Made by a program: the position numbers and the translations under genes
Assembly (NCBI RefSeq): GCF_914271545.1
Contig: NZ_CAJZAH010000002.1
Span: 1,488,001-1,552,000 of the forward strand
DNA length: 64,000 bases
From: Cupriavidus respiraculi
GTDB taxonomy: Bacteria; Pseudomonadota; Gammaproteobacteria; Burkholderiales; Burkholderiaceae
Reading direction: 5' to 3'
In this document: piece after piece, positions 1-31,890 of the stretch
How the letters are laid out: each line of letters begins with the position of its first letter
Numbering within the stretch: position 1 is the first letter of the stretch
Notes under the pieces: model-generated
Database searches by the model: none
Told to the model about the DNA's origin: nothing
The model's input: only the letters and a program-made list of their open reading frames with translations

Positions 1-207
1 CTTGGCCAGTTCGGCGAAGGCCGGCAGCCCCTGGATCGTCGCGCGGTTCGGGTTGACCGGGTAGATGCCGCCGGCAAAGCCGTGGCGGCGCATGTAGTCG
101 ATGGGCCGGCCGCCCGCCTTGATGGCGTTGTCCGAGGCGCCGAGGATGGCCACCGAGCGGGGCGAGAGCAGCTGCAGCAGCGCGTCGGGTTGCATGTGGC
201 TGGCCAT
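1..207 (-). CDS. Acyl-CoA synthetase (NDP-forming), N-terminal part
   Basis: Partial gene: 69 codons are visible and the rest runs off the left edge. The translation has the start of the CoA-binding Rossmann domain of ADP/GDP-forming acetyl- or acyl-CoA synthetases, with SVAILGASDN near residue 17 and YPVNPN near residue 49. Enzymes of this family make an acyl-CoA from a free acid in the cytoplasm. The ATG at 207 lies one base past the TGA of the Bug receptor gene, so the two are probably co-transcribed; ATG 195 is an alternative start. The substrate cannot be read from this fragment. Confidence 0.8.
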   Translation of the reverse strand, partial: MASHMQPDALLQLLSPRSVAILGASDNAIKAGGRPIDYMRRHGFAGGIYPVNPNRATIQGLPAFAELAK

Positions 208-208
208 C

Positions 209-1219
209 TCAATCCACCTTGACGTTGGCTTCGGTGGCCACGCGCTTCCATTTCGCGAGTTCGGATTGCACGAACGTGCCGAACTGGTCCGCCGTCATGG
301 TGCCCGGCGAGGTGCCGCTTTCGGCGAGATTGGCCTTCGCCTCCGCGGTGTTCATGCTGGCCACCGCGGCGCGGTTGAGCCGCTCGACCATGCCCTTGGG
401 CAGGTTCGCCGGGCCGTAGAAGCCGATCCACGTGATGGCCTCGTAGCCGTTCACGCCCTGCTCCGCGATGGTCGGCACATTGGGCAGCGCCTCGCTGCGC
501 TTGGCCGAGGTCACGCCGATGGCCTTGACCTTGCCCTCCTTGACCAGCGGCGCCATCGTCATCACGTCATGGAACAGCGCCGGGATCTGGCCGCCCAGCA
601 GGTCGGCCATCGCGGGCGTCGCCCCCTTGTACGGGATATGCACGATGGGCGCCTTGGTCATCAGCTTGAGCAGTTCTCCGGACATGTGCGTCGCGCCCCC
701 GATGCTGGACGAGCCGTAGGACAGCCCCTCCTTCTGCTTCTTCGCGTAGGTCAGGAACTCGGGCAGGTTCGACGCCGGCACGTTGTTGTTGACCACCAGC
801 AGATTGGGGGTGGTAGCCAGCAGCGCGATCGGCGTGAAGTCCTTGGCCGCGTCGTACGGCAGCTTCGCCCGCACCGCGGGGTTGATCACATGGTGGGTGG
901 CCGAGACCAGCAGCGTGTAGCCGTCCGGCGTCGCGCGCGCGGCCATCTCGGTGCCGATCTGGCCGCTGGCGCCGGCGCGGTTTTCCACCACGAAGGACTG
1001 CTTGAACTGCGTCTGCATGTCCCTGGCGATGCGGCGCGCCAGCACGTCGGTCATGCCGCCGGCGGGAAACGGCACGATGATCGTGACGGGCTTCTGCGGC
1101 CAGTTGTCCTGCGCGAGCGCGCTGGCGGAGGGAGCCAGCGCGGCCGCGGCCACGATGGCGGCGGCAAGGGCCGCATGGCGCGGGCGACGGATGAAGCGGT
1201 TGGCGTGTTGGTTGGACAA
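209..1219 (-). CDS. Bug/TctC-family periplasmic solute-binding protein
   Basis: 336 residues. A signal peptide ends near the Ala-rich stretch before AQDNWPQKP. The mature start KPVTIIVPFPAGGMTD and later VPYKG-like and QIPALF segments are typical of the tripartite tricarboxylate transporter receptor (Bug) family, which binds carboxylates in the periplasm. No TctA or TctB membrane partner is visible here. I chose the TTG at 1219 because GAGGAG lies just upstream; there is no in-frame ATG at a sensible position. It sits between a carboxylase gene and an acyl-CoA synthetase gene, suggesting import of an acid that is then activated and metabolised. The ligand is unknown. Confidence 0.85.
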   Translation of the reverse strand: MSNQHANRFIRRPRHAALAAAIVAAAALAPSASALAQDNWPQKPVTIIVPFPAGGMTDVLARRIARDMQTQFKQSFVVENRAGASGQIGTEMAARATPDGYTLLVSATHHVINPAVRAKLPYDAAKDFTPIALLATTPNLLVVNNNVPASNLPEFLTYAKKQKEGLSYGSSSIGGATHMSGELLKLMTKAPIVHIPYKGATPAMADLLGGQIPALFHDVMTMAPLVKEGKVKAIGVTSAKRSEALPNVPTIAEQGVNGYEAITWIGFYGPANLPKGMVERLNRAAVASMNTAEAKANLAESGTSPGTMTADQFGTFVQSELAKWKRVATEANVKVD

Positions 1220-1284: not shown

Positions 1285-2832
1285 CTACGGACGGATGCCG
1301 AACTTGCGCACGCCCGGTTCGCGCAGCGGCGCGGCCAGATTGGCGAACTCGCACAGCAGCGAGCGCGTCTCCCGCGGATCGATGATGTCTTCCACCACGA
1401 ACGCCTCGGCGCTGCGGAACGGCGAGGTCAGGCTGCGCACGCGCTGCTCGATCTCGGCGCGCTTTTGCACCGGATCGTCGGCGCCTTCGATCTCGGCCTT
1501 GTAGGCCACCTCCAGCCCGCCCTCGATGGGCAGCGAGCCCCAGTTGCCGGAGGGCCAGGCGTAGCGGAAATTGAAGCGCCCCATGTGCTGGTGGCCGGCT
1601 GCAGCCACGCCATAGGCGCGGCGCAGGATGATCGAGCACCACGGCACGGTGGCCTGGTAGACCGCCGCCAGCGCGCGCACGCCGTAGCGCATGGTGCCGG
1701 CCTTCTCGGCCTCGAGGCCGATCTGGAAGCCCGCGATATCGACCAGGTTCACCACCGGCAGATGGAAGACCTCCGCCAGGTCGACGAAGCGCGTGAATTT
1801 CTCCGCGGTGGGGCCGTCCCAGCCGCCGCCGTAGAAGTACGGGTCGCTCGCCACCACCGCCACCGGCCAGCCGTCGATGCGGGCCAGACCCGTGACGATG
1901 GCACGGCCCCAGTGCTTGCCGACCTCCAGGAAGGAATCGGTGTCCACCAGCGACTGCACGATGGGGCGGATCTTGTAGACCGCGCGCGGATCGCGCGGAA
2001 TGGCCGACAGCAGCCATTCGTCGCGCCGCCCGGGGTCGTCCGTGGGTTCGCGCCGCGGCGGCAGTTCGTGCACCGAGCTGGGCAGATAGGACAGGAACTG
2101 GCGCGCGCGCGCGAAGCCCTCTTCCTCGCTGGCCACCTCGTCGTCCACCACACCGTTGCGCGTATGGATATGGCTGCCGCCCAGCTCGTTCTTCTCCAGG
2201 TGCTGGCCGATGCGGGCCACCACCGGCGGCCCGGCGTTGAACAGTTGCGCGGTGCCCTTGACCATCAGCGAGTAGTGACTGGCCGCGACGCGCGCCGCGC
2301 CCATGCCGGCCACCGAGCCCAACGCCAGCGACACCACCGGCACCACCGACATGTTCTCCACCACGTGCTGCCACACCTTCATGGTCGGGATCAGCGTATG
2401 GCCCTTCGTCTCGATATTGCGCACCGAGCCGCCGCCGCCGGTGCCGTCCACCAGCCGCACCATCGGCACGCGCAGGTCGCGCGCCATCTTCTCGGCATGG
2501 ATGAGCTTGTCGCCGACCGCGCCGTCGTTGGCGCCGCCGCGCACGGTGAAGTCGTCGCCGACCAGCACCACGGGGCGGCCCTCGACGCGGGCGCGGCCCA
2601 TGATCAGGTTCGACGGCGTCAGATCGACCAGCTTGCCGTTGCTGTCGTAGTGGCCGCTGCCGCTGAGCGCGCCCACCTCGCGGAAGCTCCCGGCATCGGC
2701 CAGCGCGTCGATCCGCTCGCGCACGGTCAGCTTGCCGGCCGCCTTGTGGCGCTTGACCTTTTCCTCGCCGCCAAGGCGGGCGGCCAATTGCTTGCGATAG
2801 GCCAGTTCATCGATTTCGGGCTGCCACGACAC
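1285..2832 (-). CDS. Acyl-CoA carboxylase beta (carboxyltransferase) subunit
   Basis: 515 residues, the normal length for propionyl/methylcrotonyl-type carboxyltransferase subunits (COG4799). The N-terminal half has GKLTVRERID and GGSVRNIETKG; the C-terminal half has VVNLVDIAGF and GGGWDGPTAEKF, placing it in the crotonase-fold family that moves CO2 from biotin to an acyl-CoA. The start is the GTG at 2832, preceded by AGGAG; an ATG at 2868 lies upstream of that ribosome site and is less likely. First gene of a minus-strand operon behind a sigma-54 promoter. No biotin-carboxylase partner is seen next to it, so the substrate and alpha subunit are unknown. Confidence 0.88.
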   Translation of the reverse strand: MSWQPEIDELAYRKQLAARLGGEEKVKRHKAAGKLTVRERIDALADAGSFREVGALSGSGHYDSNGKLVDLTPSNLIMGRARVEGRPVVLVGDDFTVRGGANDGAVGDKLIHAEKMARDLRVPMVRLVDGTGGGGSVRNIETKGHTLIPTMKVWQHVVENMSVVPVVSLALGSVAGMGAARVAASHYSLMVKGTAQLFNAGPPVVARIGQHLEKNELGGSHIHTRNGVVDDEVASEEEGFARARQFLSYLPSSVHELPPRREPTDDPGRRDEWLLSAIPRDPRAVYKIRPIVQSLVDTDSFLEVGKHWGRAIVTGLARIDGWPVAVVASDPYFYGGGWDGPTAEKFTRFVDLAEVFHLPVVNLVDIAGFQIGLEAEKAGTMRYGVRALAAVYQATVPWCSIILRRAYGVAAAGHQHMGRFNFRYAWPSGNWGSLPIEGGLEVAYKAEIEGADDPVQKRAEIEQRVRSLTSPFRSAEAFVVEDIIDPRETRSLLCEFANLAAPLREPGVRKFGIRP

Positions 2833-8417: not shown

Positions 8418-10442
<2,025 letters not shown>

Positions 10443-10445
10443 TCA

Positions 10446-10530
10446 TGAAACTTCCCACGCCGGTACTAACCGGATCGGGTTCGAAGGGACTCTCTCAGCC
10501 GCGCGGCCCATCCGCACGGCACCCCTGTTT
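10446..10530 (-). promoter_or_regulatory. TPP riboswitch (THI element) of thiC
   Basis: Read on the minus strand the segment carries the conserved parts in order: GGGGTGCC, GGCTGAGAG, ACCCGATCCGG and ACCGGCGTGGGAAG. These form the pyrimidine-binding and pyrophosphate-binding arms of the TPP aptamer. It lies about 135 bases before the thiC ATG and should lower expression of thiCOSGE when thiamine pyrophosphate is plentiful. I could not define the expression platform between it and thiC. Confidence 0.95.
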
Positions 10531-10768
10531 CATCCAACGGGGTGAATTTAAGCACAAGCCCCTGCGCCGCGCCAGCACGGATTGACGCACGACAGCGATG
10601 CATCGGCGTAAGGAATCGGCTTGCTGCGCCGCACGATCGGCAGCCCGTGGGCACGCCGGCGCACAAATTGGTCCGCATGGGCGCGCATCCAAGGGCACAC
10701 CACCCTGCCCGCGAGGCGGCCGTTGCCCTACCATGCAGCCAGGGCACCAGACCCGGCAAGGAGACTCC
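10531..10768. other. Divergent intergenic region, thiC leader / aidB
   Basis: Non-coding stretch between the TPP aptamer and the aidB-like gene. The minus strand has TTAAAT shortly before the aptamer, a possible -10 for thiC, without a convincing -35. On the plus strand only the ribosome site AAGGAG before the ATG at 10769 is clear. No other structure stands out. Confidence 0.35.
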
Positions 10769-17761: not shown

Positions 17762-18925
17762 TTACAGACCGGCGGCGGCGCGCAGCGCGGCGGCCTTGTC
17801 GGTCGCCTCCCACGAGAATTCTGGCTCCTCGCGGCCGAAGTGGCCGTAGGCGGCGGTCTTCTCGTAGATGGGACGCAGCAGGTCCAGCATCTGCACGATG
17901 CCCTTCGGGCGCAGGTCGAAGTGTTCCATCACCAGCTTGGCGATGGCCTCGTCCGAGATCTTGCCGGTGCCTTCGGTGTAGACCGTCACGTTGATGGGAC
18001 GGGCCACGCCAATCGCGTAGCTGACCTGCACCTGGCACTGGCGCGCCAGGCCGGCCGCGACGATGTTCTTGGCGACATAGCGGGCCGCGTAGGCCGCCGA
18101 GCGGTCGACCTTGGACGGGTCCTTGCCCGAGAACGCGCCGCCGCCGTGCGGCGCCGCGCCGCCGTAGGTGTCGACGATGATCTTGCGGCCGGTCAGGCCG
18201 CAGTCGCCCTGCGGGCCGCCGATGACGAAGCGGCCGGTCGGGTTGACCAGATACTTGGTCTCCTTGAGCATGGCCGCCGGCAGCACCGGCTTGATGATCT
18301 CCTCGATCACGGCCTCGCGGATCTGCTCCTGGCTGATGTCCGGCGCGTGCTGGGTCGACAGCACCACCGTGTCGACGCTATGCGGCTTGCCCTCGACATA
18401 GCGCACCGTGACCTGCGACTTGGCGTCGGGACGCAGCCAGGGCAGGCGGCCGTCGCGGCGCAGCTGCGACTGGCGCTCGACCAGGCGGTGCGAGTAGTAG
18501 ATCGGGAACGGCATCAGTTCCGGGGTCTCGTCGCAGGCGTAGCCGAACATCAGGCCCTGGTCGCCGGCGCCCTGGTTCAGGTAGTCGTCGGAGGCGCGGT
18601 CCACGCCTTGCGCGATATCGGGCGACTGCTTGTCGTAGGCGACGAGCACGGCACAACCCTTGTAGTCGATGCCGTAGTCGGTATTGTCGTAGCCGATGCG
18701 CTTGATGGTGTCGCGGGCGACCTGAATGTAATCGACATTCGCGGTCGTGGTGATTTCGCCGGCCAGCACCACCAGGCCGGTATTGCACAGCGTTTCCGCG
18801 GCGACGCGGGCGTATTTGTCCTGGGCCAGGATGGCGTCGAGGACCGCGTCCGAGATCTGGTCGGCGACCTTGTCGGGATGGCCTTCGGAAACGGATTCCG
18901 AAGTGAACAGGAAGTCGTTTGCCAC
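17762..18925 (-). CDS. metK: S-adenosylmethionine synthetase
   Basis: 387 residues, full length. MetK makes SAM from methionine and [22 protein letters not shown] at the N terminus, [12 protein letters not shown] and [19 protein letters not shown] are the family's signature motifs for ATP, metal and phosphate binding. The start is a GTG with GGAG nine bases upstream. The 130-base leader carries a SAM-II-like riboswitch, so product feedback on translation or transcription is likely. Confidence 0.97.
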
Positions 18926-18980
18926 GAACTTATTCTCCAGGTTGGCTATTGCGCGCCAACCTCTTCAGTCCGGGCGGCGA

Positions 18981-19053
18981 CGCTTTAGCGGTATTTTCAG
19001 GCCGTCCGCAAAGGACGGTATCGCCCCGCAAGTTGTCAGTTAACTCGGCGATG
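18981..19053 (-). promoter_or_regulatory. Candidate SAM-II riboswitch, metK leader
   Basis: On the minus strand the core reads ATCGCC, GAGTTAACTGACAACTTGCG, GGCGAT, an inserted CCGTCC/GGACGG hairpin, then CTGAAAATACCGCTAAAGCG. P1 is ATCGCC/GGCGAT. The pseudoknot can pair CTTGCGG with CCGC..AAG, leaving UA bulged. These parts follow the order of the known SAM-II core (UCGC..GAUUUAAC..UUGC..GCG..AUAAAU..GCUAAA). The RNA starts where a TATAAT at 19060-19065 would place the transcript start. A second hairpin (GGTTGGC/GCCAACC) sits before the GTG. The family call is from memory of the consensus. Confidence 0.7.
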
Positions 19054-19059
19054 CGCGGT

Positions 19060-19065
19060 ATTATA
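19060..19065 (-). promoter_or_regulatory. -10 element of metK
   Basis: Perfect TATAAT on the minus strand, seven bases before the riboswitch P1 stem. No good -35 is seen 16-18 bases further upstream (best TGTGCC). It lies in the divergent space shared with the lipid A acyltransferase operon. Confidence 0.6.
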
Positions 19066-29829: not shown

Positions 29830-30453
29830 CTACCGGCCGCAGACCCGGTACACCGCCAGGCTGCCGCGCCAGTTGACGCCCCAGTTCACCGTCACCCCCT
29901 CGTGCATCACGACCCGGTCCACGATGCGCAGGCCCACCTTGGGCGCCAGCGCCTCGAAGTCGCTGATGGTCAGCACGCGCACGTTGGGCGTGTCGTACCA
30001 CTGGTAGGGCAGCGCCTCGGAGACCGGCATGCGGCCGCGGAAAATCGACATCCGGTGCGGCCAGTAGCCGAAGTTGGGGAACGACACGATGCATTCGCGC
30101 CCGACCCGCAGCGTCTCGCGCAGGACCTGGGCGGTGTTGTGGATGGTCTGCAGCGTCTGCGACAGGATCACCGTGTCGAAGCTCTTGTCCTCGAACAGCG
30201 CGAGGCCGCCCTCCAGGTCCTGCTGGATGACATGCACGCCCTTCTGCGCGCAGGCCAGCACGCCCTCGTCGCGGATCTCGATGCCATAGGCCTGCACGTC
30301 GAGCTCGTCCTGCAGCACGCGCAGCAGGCTGCCGTCGGCGCAGCCCAGGTCCAGCACGGTGGCATTGGGTTCGATCCAGCGCGCGATGGCGCGAAAGTCC
30401 GGGCGCTGGGCCAGCACGCCGCTGGCCGCGGCCGACATTGCCTTGGCGTTCAT
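29830..30453 (-). CDS. metW: Methionine biosynthesis protein MetW
   Basis: 207 residues, a class I SAM-methyltransferase fold with [16 protein letters not shown] as motif I and [11 protein letters not shown], a MetW signature. MetW accompanies MetX in many proteobacteria and is needed for full homoserine acyltransferase activity. GAGGAGGTGG precedes the ATG, which overlaps the metX stop (ATGA). Confidence 0.93.
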
Positions 30454-31619
30454 GCGCCCACCTCCTCGGCGATGCGGTTGTAGTAGGCGCGCATCAGGTC
30501 GTGATAGCGCGGATCGTCCAGCAGGAAGGCATCGTGTCCGTGCGGCGCGTCGATCTCCGCGTAGCTGACCGGGCGCTTGTTGTCGAGCAGCGCCTTGACC
30601 AGCTCGCGGCTGCGGCTGGGGGCGAAGCGCCAGTCGGTGGTGAAGCTGGCCACCAGGAAGCTCGCGCGGGTCTGGGCCACCGCGCGCGTCAGGTCGCCGC
30701 CAAAGGCCAGCGCGGGATCGAAGTAGTCCAGCGCGCGGGTGATCAGCAGGTAGGTGTTCGCGTCGAAGTACTCCGCGAACTTGTCGCCCTGGTAGCGCAG
30801 ATAGCTCTCGACCTGGAACTCGACGTCGAACGAGAAGCGGATGTCCTCGGTCTTGAGCGTGCGGCCGAATTTCTCCGCCATGTCCTCGTCGGACAGATAG
30901 GTGATGTGGCCGATCATGCGGGCCACGCGCAGGCCGCGCTTGGGCTTGACGTTGTGCGCGTAGTAGTTGCCGCCGTGAAAGTCCGGGTCCGACAGGATGG
31001 CGCTGCGGGCCACCTCGTTGAAGGCGATGTTCTGCGCCGACAGCTTGGGCGTGGACGCCACCACGATGCAGTGGCGCAGCCGGTCCGGGTACATCAGGCT
31101 CCAGGCCAGCGCCTGCATGCCGCCGAGGCTGCCGCCCATCACCGCGGCGAACTGCGCGATGCCGAAGGCGTCGGCCACGCGCGCCTGCGCGTTGACCCAG
31201 TCCTCCACCGTGACCACCGGAAACGCGGCGCCGAAGGGCTGCCCGGTGGCCGGATTGAGGCTCATCGGCCCGGTCGAGCCGAAGCACGAGCCGAGGTTAT
31301 TCACGCCGATCACGAAGAAGCGGTCGGTATCGAGCGGCTTGCCCGGACCGACCATGTTGTCCCACCAGCCGAGCTCGCCGCCCTCGGCGTAGATGCCGGC
31401 GACATGGTGGGAGGCGTTCAGCGCGTGGCAGACCAGCACGGCATTGCTGCGGTCGGCGTTCAGCGTGCCGTAGGTCTCGACCATCAGGTCGTACCCGGCG
31501 AGGGAAGAGCCGTTGCGCAGCGGCAGCGGCTCGGCGAAATGCATGCGCCGCGGCGCGACGATGCCGACCGAGTCGGGCGGCAGGTCCAGCGCGGCGGGCG
31601 GCGAAGCAACGTCAGTCAT
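30450..31619 (-). CDS. metX: Homoserine O-acyltransferase
   Basis: 389 residues from the ATG at 31619, the first enzyme of methionine synthesis from homoserine. The alpha/beta-hydrolase fold has nucleophile [12 protein letters not shown] near residue 163 and the histidine in [28 protein letters not shown] is a MetX signature. Acetyl versus succinyl use cannot be told safely. AAGGAG lies a few bases from the ATG. The leader has a SAM-II-like riboswitch and a terminator. Confidence 0.95.
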
Positions 31620-31669: not shown

Positions 31670-31717
31670 AAAAAACCCGACCGGCATTTGCGTGTGTCCA
31701 CGCAGCCAAATCGGGTT
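31670..31717 (-). terminator. Intrinsic terminator in the metX leader (attenuator)
   Basis: Minus strand: outer stem AACCCGA/TCGGGTT, inner stem TGCGTG/CACGCA with a GACA loop, then six T residues. It lies 80 bases downstream of the riboswitch core and 50 bases before metX, so it can stop transcription before the gene. Confidence 0.8.
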
Positions 31718-31798
31718 GTTCACGCGAGCCGGTTCGTTCTTCCGTTCCTCGCCGCGCGCCGCCGCCTGTGCCGAAAATTCGGGGATGGGCGCCGACCA

Positions 31799-31890
31799 CC
31801 TCTTTAGCCGCATTTATAGTGGCAGCCGGCGATCCCTCCAGGAGTCTCCGCTGCCGCGCGCCCGCAAGCCAGTCATCAAATCGGCGCGAC
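31799..31890 (-). promoter_or_regulatory. Candidate SAM-II riboswitch, metX leader
   Basis: On the minus strand: TCGCGCC, GATTTGATGACTGGCTTGC, GGGCGCG, an inserted hairpin closed by GGCAGC/GCTGCC, then ACTATAAATGCGGCTAAAGAGG. P1 is CGCGCC/GGCGCG, and the pseudoknot can pair CTTGC with GC..AAG across a UA bulge. The order and the invariant GATTT, TTGC, ATAAAT and GCTAAA blocks fit the SAM-II (metA-type) aptamer, which shuts methionine genes when SAM is high. The start coincides with that predicted from TATAAT at 31897-31902. Confidence 0.75.

Follow-up and report, generated by a model that had tools for sequence, protein, structure and literature searches.

A conserved SAM-II-like pseudoknot ahead of beta-proteobacterial metK genes, probably a translational riboswitch of an uncatalogued subgroup

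Introduction

Most SAM-II riboswitches act at the transcriptional level (PMC6061858; PMC2258182), and SAM-II RNAs with terminators were already mentioned for beta-proteobacteria by Barrick and Breaker in 2007, in passages from which the word metK is absent. In SAM-V, the adenine of the ligand is held by U47 and its amino acid end by A50, the U20:A48.U9 triple faces the sulfonium, and U8 contacts U47 (PMC6061858). Such RNAs may stand in series: a survey of tandem riboswitches counted 44 SAM-II doublets, some with mixed platforms (PMC9481103), and in the bhmT tandem of P. ubique a truncated SAM-II responds to SAM (PMC11508383). In beta-proteobacteria, Leyn et al. (2014; PMC4239095) described a 'metXZ' RNA element and reported that metK is not under the control of the known regulators, their own regulator search having been unsuccessful. 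Published work is cited here from passages of the papers concerned. Within such passages, metK goes unmentioned in PMC8632094 and the open-access literature yielded no report of a leader RNA at beta-proteobacterial metK; published expanded SAM-II alignments may include some of the sequences.

Results

The metK leader

The window, i.e., the whole stretch of 64,000 nucleotides of Cupriavidus respiraculi DNA that was analysed, carries a SAM synthetase gene, metK (TIGR01034, 604 bits, cut-off 309), as supposed in a preliminary description of this DNA; the closest named metK gene is from Cupriavidus (97% identical), in agreement with the beta-proteobacterial host proposed there. That description had placed a SAM-II-like riboswitch with an extra hairpin ahead of the gene, and all the blocks it had named are present on the minus strand: ATCGCC, GGCGAT, the loop block GAGTTAACTGACAACTTGC, GAAAAT, GCTAAAG, and CTTGCGG (19032-19026) opposite CCGC (18991-18988) and AAAG (18986-18983), together with the inserted hairpin. 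The interval assigned to the riboswitch, 18981-19065, contains the aptamer and the -10 box (19065-19060), but the expression platform, at 18914-18981, lies outside it. The features of the leader, with the basis of each in brackets, are:

19060..19065, minus strand: -10 promoter hexamer TATAAT (sequence)
19052 to about 18983, minus strand: aptamer (sequence and covariation)
19047..19052, minus strand: P1 5' strand ATCGCC (covariation)
19046-19028, minus strand: loop block GAGTTAACTGACAACTTGC (sequence)
19040..19046, minus strand: third strand GAGUUAA, with G at the position of SAM-II U10 (alignment)
19026..19031, minus strand: pseudoknot (P2) 5' strand UUGCGG (covariation)
19020..19025, minus strand: P1 3' strand GGCGAT (covariation)
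19002..19018, minus strand: optional P3 hairpin CCGUCC-UUUGC-GGACGG, stem arms CCGTCC/GGACGG at 19018-19013/19007-19002 (sequence)
18998-18993, minus strand: block GAAAAT (sequence)
18994..18997, minus strand: A-rich stretch ahead of the pseudoknot 3' strand, A-minor candidates (analogy to SAM-V A40-A42)
18985..18991, minus strand: pseudoknot 3' strand CCGCUAA (covariation)
18989-18983, minus strand: block GCTAAAG (sequence)
18967..18981, minus strand: predicted switching strand (fold and duplex prediction)
18940..18961, minus strand: predicted hairpin GGUUGGC/GCCAACC adjoining the Shine-Dalgarno sequence (fold prediction)
18935..18938, minus strand: Shine-Dalgarno sequence GGAG (sequence)
18914..18930, minus strand: start codon region, predicted partner of the switching strand, with GUG at 18925-18923 (duplex prediction)
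17762..18925, minus strand: metK, SAM synthetase, GTG start at 18925 (TIGR01034)

A TATAAT-like hexamer (at most one mismatch) begins 20-11 nt ahead of P1 in 64 of 74 leaders, with a peak at -13/-12, whereas the other 10-nt windows hold such hexamers in 2.3 leaders on average. As the box lies just ahead of P1 in most leaders, the RNA probably begins with P1, its transcript start lying at or beside this strand. The length of P3 varies among leaders, the short ones leaving no room for it.

Conservation and covariation

Leaders were collected from 80 named metK loci and from loci recovered by searching 300 genomes of the host's order at the DNA level, in which the stretch around P1 and the loop proved conserved far beyond the genus. 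The alignment, A1, comprises 69 leaders, namely 68 of the 86 extracted and that of the window; the 18 others were omitted for their long inserts or as near-duplicates. In the alignment, 68 rows precede metK and one (L013) precedes an orphan gene.

These leaders share a conserved H-type pseudoknot (P1 and P2) with the invariant SAM-II/SAM-V core UU / UUGC / GCUAAA, placed directly behind a promoter. P1 and the pseudoknot are paired in 99.3% of 822 cells, and 77 cells are changed on both sides of a pair, compared to a mean of 20.5 (sd 3.4) in shuffled alignments, none of 500 being as high; sliding the partner by 1-3 columns left at most 9 such cells. The preliminary description would have given way had homologous metK leaders failed to keep these pairs; they keep them, and the SAM-II-like architecture it proposed is borne out on the 69 homologous leaders. 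By two other counts the alignment did not exceed its shuffles: the number of pairs with a double change (5 of 12; 256/500 as high) and the number of further pair types (12; 222/500 as high). The variation lies at P1 columns 2/36 (GC 34, AU 21, CG 4, UA 4, UG 1) and at pseudoknot columns 29/84 (GC 44, AU 21, GU 4) and 30/83 (GC 61, AU 7, one mismatch); the pseudoknot's inner four pairs are invariant. GCUAAA is identical in 69/69 leaders, as are UUGC and the two residues U11 and U12, in what we take to be the SAM-II numbering. Columns 77-79 are mostly A (46, 64 and 60 of 69).

RNAalifold, unprompted, returned P1 together with a competing hairpin, CGC-UAAA-GCG. Single-sequence folding was discarded as evidence (energy z -1.54; minimum free energy structure without P1 as proposed). 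The metK leader of L088 (about 1872-1943, plus strand) bears a small inverted-repeat insert, TTGCAGCAATGCAA, between the third strand and the pseudoknot strand; the turn therefore tolerates insertions.

Distribution

R1, a covariance model encoding P1 only, matches 79 of the 80 named metK loci (one match is cut by the locus end), the exception being L063; 28 of these 79 lie outside the training alignment. A regular expression found no element in 16 of 114 loci, several of which are loci other than metK. Among those it missed are four named metK loci; R1 matches L080 (truncated where the locus ends), L088 and L092, but misses L063. As the named loci were picked by metK similarity, 79/80 speaks for close relatives; for the order, the figure is 28 of 100 evenly drawn genomes, all of which carry metK, with an R1 match ending at most 116 nt upstream of the metK match. 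R1 finds a match somewhere in 71 of these 100 genomes, with two tandem matches in 10, and in 203 of the 300 genomes of the order. In a scan of the phylum, 49 of 398 genomes match; 20 of them are outside the order, 16 in a single gamma-proteobacterial family, where 33 of 59 genomes have a match, three of them weak. The genera among the element-bearing metK loci include Cupriavidus, Ralstonia, Paraburkholderia, Achromobacter, Bordetella, Variovorax, Polaromonas, Undibacterium and Duganella.

Kinship with SAM-II and SAM-V

Rfam 15 assigned no credible family to 281 nt around the metK leader up to E 10; matches there to Pseudomon-groES (21.2 bits, cut-off 50) and to an alphavirus frameshift element (14.1 bits, cut-off 80) were rejected as chance. 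The preliminary description had named the absence of a covariance-model hit as evidence against itself, and on this point the result went against it: the leader matches neither RF00521 (SAM-II; gathering cut-off 36 bits), which does not report it in a search of the whole genome of the host, nor SAM-V (RF01826), which gives nothing on it and nothing above cut-off in 10 genomes with strong R1 matches. The SAM-II domains that stand ahead of SAM-V, however, also fall short: in 4 loci they reach 21-29 bits vs 36 under RF00521, and three further ones are unlisted at E<=1 yet matched by R1. Missing the cut-off therefore does not exclude membership, and we take the absent match as a limit of the Rfam model. 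RF00521 exceeds its cut-off in 16 of the 100 genomes of the order and, among the matches listed, touches a metK-type element once (20.9 bits, genome G031). The Rfam consensus reads GAUUUG...GCUUGC...UUAAA...GCUAAAg, and that of the metK type GAGUUAA...ACNACUUGC...AAAU...GCUAAAGCG.

Searched with R1, fetched beta-proteobacterial RF00521 loci gave 12 matches out of 12 (25-38 bits), seven before metX, four before metZ-like genes and one before an unidentified gene. R1 scores highest on the SAM-II domains ahead of SAM-V (41-51 bits in 5 of 10 loci and 29-30 in 2; E down to 5e-12), and is weak on classic alpha-proteobacterial SAM-II (best 20.9 bits; at E<=1 it lists 14 of the 20). The ten SAM-V loci all come from one family with genomes of about 1 Mb, taken for Pelagibacteraceae. 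One of them, L218, with third strand GAUUUAA, contains the primer 1 sequence of the P. ubique bhmT tandem (PMC11508383); three others (L222, L223 and L226) have the third strand GAGUUAA in their SAM-II domains, as at metK.

The predicted ligand pocket

We take U44 and A47 to be the SAM-II counterparts of SAM-V U47 and A50, and U10 is presumably the SAM-II residue equivalent to U8 of the SAM-V third strand. By this correspondence, the U at 18987 and the A at 18984 are predicted to contact SAM, and the pocket equivalents (U18987, U19030:A18986 with the third-strand U, and A18984) are identical in 69/69 leaders. The only change of pocket in the metK type is a G for the third-strand U8 (U10 in SAM-II): A1 has G at position 10 in 65 leaders, including that of the window, and U in 4. 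This position was read with a regular expression in 76 of the 80 named metK loci, 19 of the 20 alpha-proteobacterial SAM-II loci, 7 of the 10 loci with SAM-V and 12 of the 12 RF00521 loci. It is G in 75/76 metK leaders, U in 19/19 alpha-proteobacterial SAM-II, and G in 3/7 SAM-II domains beside SAM-V, of which one or two may be misread. Because G10 also occurs beside SAM-V, the missing U10 is not decisive against SAM-II membership. G10 could still donate to the adenine-binding U, so SAM binding by the metK leader would be expected; G10 is also the point where specificity could differ.

The predicted expression platform

A permutation test supports statistically a predicted pairing between the segment directly 3' of the pseudoknot and the translation start of the very gene it precedes. 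The 24 nt after GCUAAA were paired with the start region (-10 to +12), own or permuted within sequence groups: in 73 distinct leaders, the own start gave -16.18 kcal/mol compared to -14.81 (sd 0.24) for permuted ones, with 0/5000 permutations as low. In the group of the window (13 leaders) the values were -15.6 vs -12.0 (0/5000), and in the other groups 12, 52, 960 and 1343 of 5000 permutations were as low, the last two, each of 8 leaders, being not significant. When the segment was slid along 70 to 74 leaders, a control that keeps relatedness, the effect appeared only at offsets -10, 0 and +5 (z -5.2, -5.8 and -6.0), adjoining the pseudoknot, and was absent at the eight other of 11 offsets (z -0.7 to +1.1). 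As the segment 3' of the pseudoknot pairs with the start of its own gene, translation control has direct sequence support.

For the leader of the window, the predicted duplex joins 18975-18967 to 18930-18921, spanning the GUG, and 18981-18978 to 18917-18914; folding the single strand gives 18976-18972 the P1 3' strand as partner instead. Pairing between the P1 3' strand and the switching strand was better than shuffles in 72 of 74 leaders, with no group-specific covariation among them. Predicted Shine-Dalgarno accessibility did not change when P1 and the pseudoknot were constrained (less in 7, more in 5 of 75 leaders; p 0.75), a null result that was dropped as evidence of switching. Among the folds printed as examples, those predicted with the aptamer constrained and those predicted without constraint both contain the start-pairing helix. 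These 75 are the metK leaders in which the rules found start and core; L099, whose segment is empty, was left out of the pairing tests, which used 74 leaders for the P1 3' strand and 73 distinct ones for the start. Runs of five or more T occur in 9 of the 75 leaders, none terminator-like by eye, and transcriptional control of metK was set aside on that account.

Elements at other genes

A second element lies in the window ahead of metX:

31793..31888, minus strand: metX-type SAM-II-like element (R1, 20.0 bits, E 0.0013)
31670..31716, minus strand: terminator-like hairpin and T-run after this element (by eye)
30450..31619, minus strand: metX, best model homoserine O-succinyltransferase MetX (NF047916, 680 bits)
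29830-30453, minus strand: metW, after metX (TIGR02081, 277.6 bits)

Its layout is CGCGCC-GATTTGATGACTGGCTTGC-GGGCGCG ... GCTAAAG, and RF00521 gives it 19.8 bits on 31857-31888, below the cut-off and yet the best weak match of the host genome. Most metX/metZ-type elements printed are followed, by eye, by a hairpin and T-run. The metX leader fits the published metXZ element (PMC4239095) by gene and layout. A TPP riboswitch (69.4 bits) lies elsewhere in the window at 10435-10536, minus strand.

In the 100 genomes of the order, 80 of 108 R1 matches are not at metK; where the downstream gene was examined, it was metZ-like, a small orphan or, in a few cases, another gene. The element also stands ahead of an orphan gene in a gamma-proteobacterial family that is probably Pseudomonadaceae (L139-L144, L150, L151, L228, L229 and perhaps L155). 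The encoded protein has about 101-106 residues; two of three scanned show a weak likeness to part of MetW or a methyltransferase (E 0.02-0.3), and a fold search with this orphan was not significant. At 13 other loci (L013, L145-L148, L177-L181, L184, L194, L195) the gene downstream of the element encodes an orphan protein of 95-112 residues with M(Y/F)DC at its start; these proteins are 15-53% identical to that of L147 and likely form one family. In 11 of the 13 leaders, a SAM-II-type pseudoknot coupled to a terminator stands in tandem with one of the metK type; a MATE-like transporter, named by eye, follows in five loci. No Pfam match was obtained for the four scanned; AlphaFold2 predicts a ferredoxin-like fold (pLDDT 78), for which all PDB matches were weak and designed proteins ranked first. 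Two R1 elements have no obvious methionine link, one before an AAA/MoxR-type ATPase gene (L163, G270, 193-249, plus strand) and a tandem before a 154-residue protein (L027, G170, 1383-1559, plus strand). In a 1.2-Mb genome of the family carrying SAM-V, an R1-type element with a terminator-like hairpin precedes metF, encoding methylenetetrahydrofolate reductase (L149, G633, 2327-2383, minus strand).

Discussion

We consider it probable, at roughly three chances in four, that the metK leader belongs to an uncatalogued subgroup of SAM-II-class riboswitches and represses metK translation. SAM would dock in the P2 major groove, as in SAM-II and SAM-V, and stabilise P1 and P2. With SAM bound, P2 would take up CCGCUAA and dissolve the competing hairpin CGC-UAAA-GCG, while P1 would keep its 3' strand off the downstream switching strand; the freed switching strand would then pair across the GUG start and metK translation would fall. 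Without SAM, the P1 3' strand or the CGCUAAAGCG hairpin would hold the switching strand and metK would be translated. Unlike in the metX-type elements, no terminator would be involved. The binding of SAM, the alternation between these pairings and its direction are what we infer.

The same fold could serve another ligand, the G10 variant sensing SAH or a different metabolite of the SAM cycle in place of SAM. G10 in 75/76 metK leaders, set against U10 in 19/19 alpha-proteobacterial SAM-II, speaks for this, as does the contact of its SAM-V equivalent, U8, with the holder of the SAM adenine, U47 (PMC6061858). The U:A.U triple that faces the sulfonium (equivalents of U11, U21 and A45) is nonetheless invariant, the G also occurs in 3/7 SAM-II domains read beside SAM-V, 4/69 metK-type leaders keep U10, and the metabolic logic at metK favours SAM, so that we regard a change of ligand as quite unlikely. 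A broader proposal, that the leaders form a distinct SAM-pathway sensor class on the SAM-II fold, with G10 reshaping the adenine layer and altering ligand preference or affinity and with a start-codon-pairing platform, seems to us unlikely. Were it true, the RNA would be adjusted either to SAH or to the SAM concentrations that require metK to be closed down. Passages of the open-access literature yielded no description of such a platform for SAM-II or SAM-V.

The platform would serve a protein as well as a metabolite, and the pseudoknot might accordingly be the binding site of a translational repressor protein; yet its single-stranded core letters coincide with the SAM-contacting ones of SAM-II and SAM-V, and some tandems join it to SAM-II elements above the Rfam cut-off (L013, L027; G021), which makes this highly improbable. 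An ON switch, in which SAM frees the start, or a static helix would agree with the equal accessibility predicted with and without aptamer constraints, but the switching strand takes part in both pairings and feedback repression is the rule for metK riboswitches; we hold either to be very unlikely. P1 is also a short inverted repeat beside a -10 box and could, as DNA, bind a repressor. Neither such an operator nor chance conservation fits the covariation of pseudoknot partners that are separated by tens of nucleotides, including a hairpin whose length varies, or the failure of the slid-partner controls, and we give these two almost no credence. Repression of metK translation by a SAM-II-class RNA remains the preferred reading.

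On this reading, the control of beta-proteobacterial metK, reported as unsolved after a dedicated search (PMC4239095), would receive a direct and testable answer, and SAM-II-class RNAs would reach the SAM synthetase gene itself. The metK leaders also expose a blind spot of the Rfam model, and their natural G10 series is a means to test how the SAM-II fold reads its ligand.

Among the known systems, SAM-II (RF00521) shares with the metK leader the H-type pseudoknot, the core GA-UU...UUGC...GCUAAA and the linkage to methionine/SAM genes; the metK leader differs in lying beyond Rfam detection, in its G at position 10, in the P3 hairpin between P1 and AAA, and in its target, metK, with translational control. 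The SAM-II domains ahead of SAM-V share GAGUUAA in 3/7 read, and the AAA and GCG flanks. SAM-V (RF01826) has in common the pseudoknot core, the position of the P3 stem-loop (PMC6061858) and translational control, but carries the Shine-Dalgarno sequence inside P2, whereas that of metK lies about 47 nt past the pseudoknot (18938-18935 vs 18991-18985). The SAM/SAH riboswitch (RF01727) is likewise a small aptamer ahead of metK, there in Rhodobacterales (PMC2864571); its Rfam model gives no match on the metK leader. The published SAM-II/SAM-V tandems and SAM-II doublets (PMC9481103; PMC11508383) place a terminator-coupled SAM-II before a translational pseudoknot, an arrangement that occurs here before orphan genes, whereas the metK leaders that were read contain the element singly. 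The metXZ element (PMC4239095), from the same group of bacteria, also forms a pseudoknot in the leader of a methionine gene, but has a terminator and metX or metZ as its target, both of which the metK leader is without. We therefore file the metK leader as a SAM-II-class RNA with a new subgroup, a new target and a new platform.
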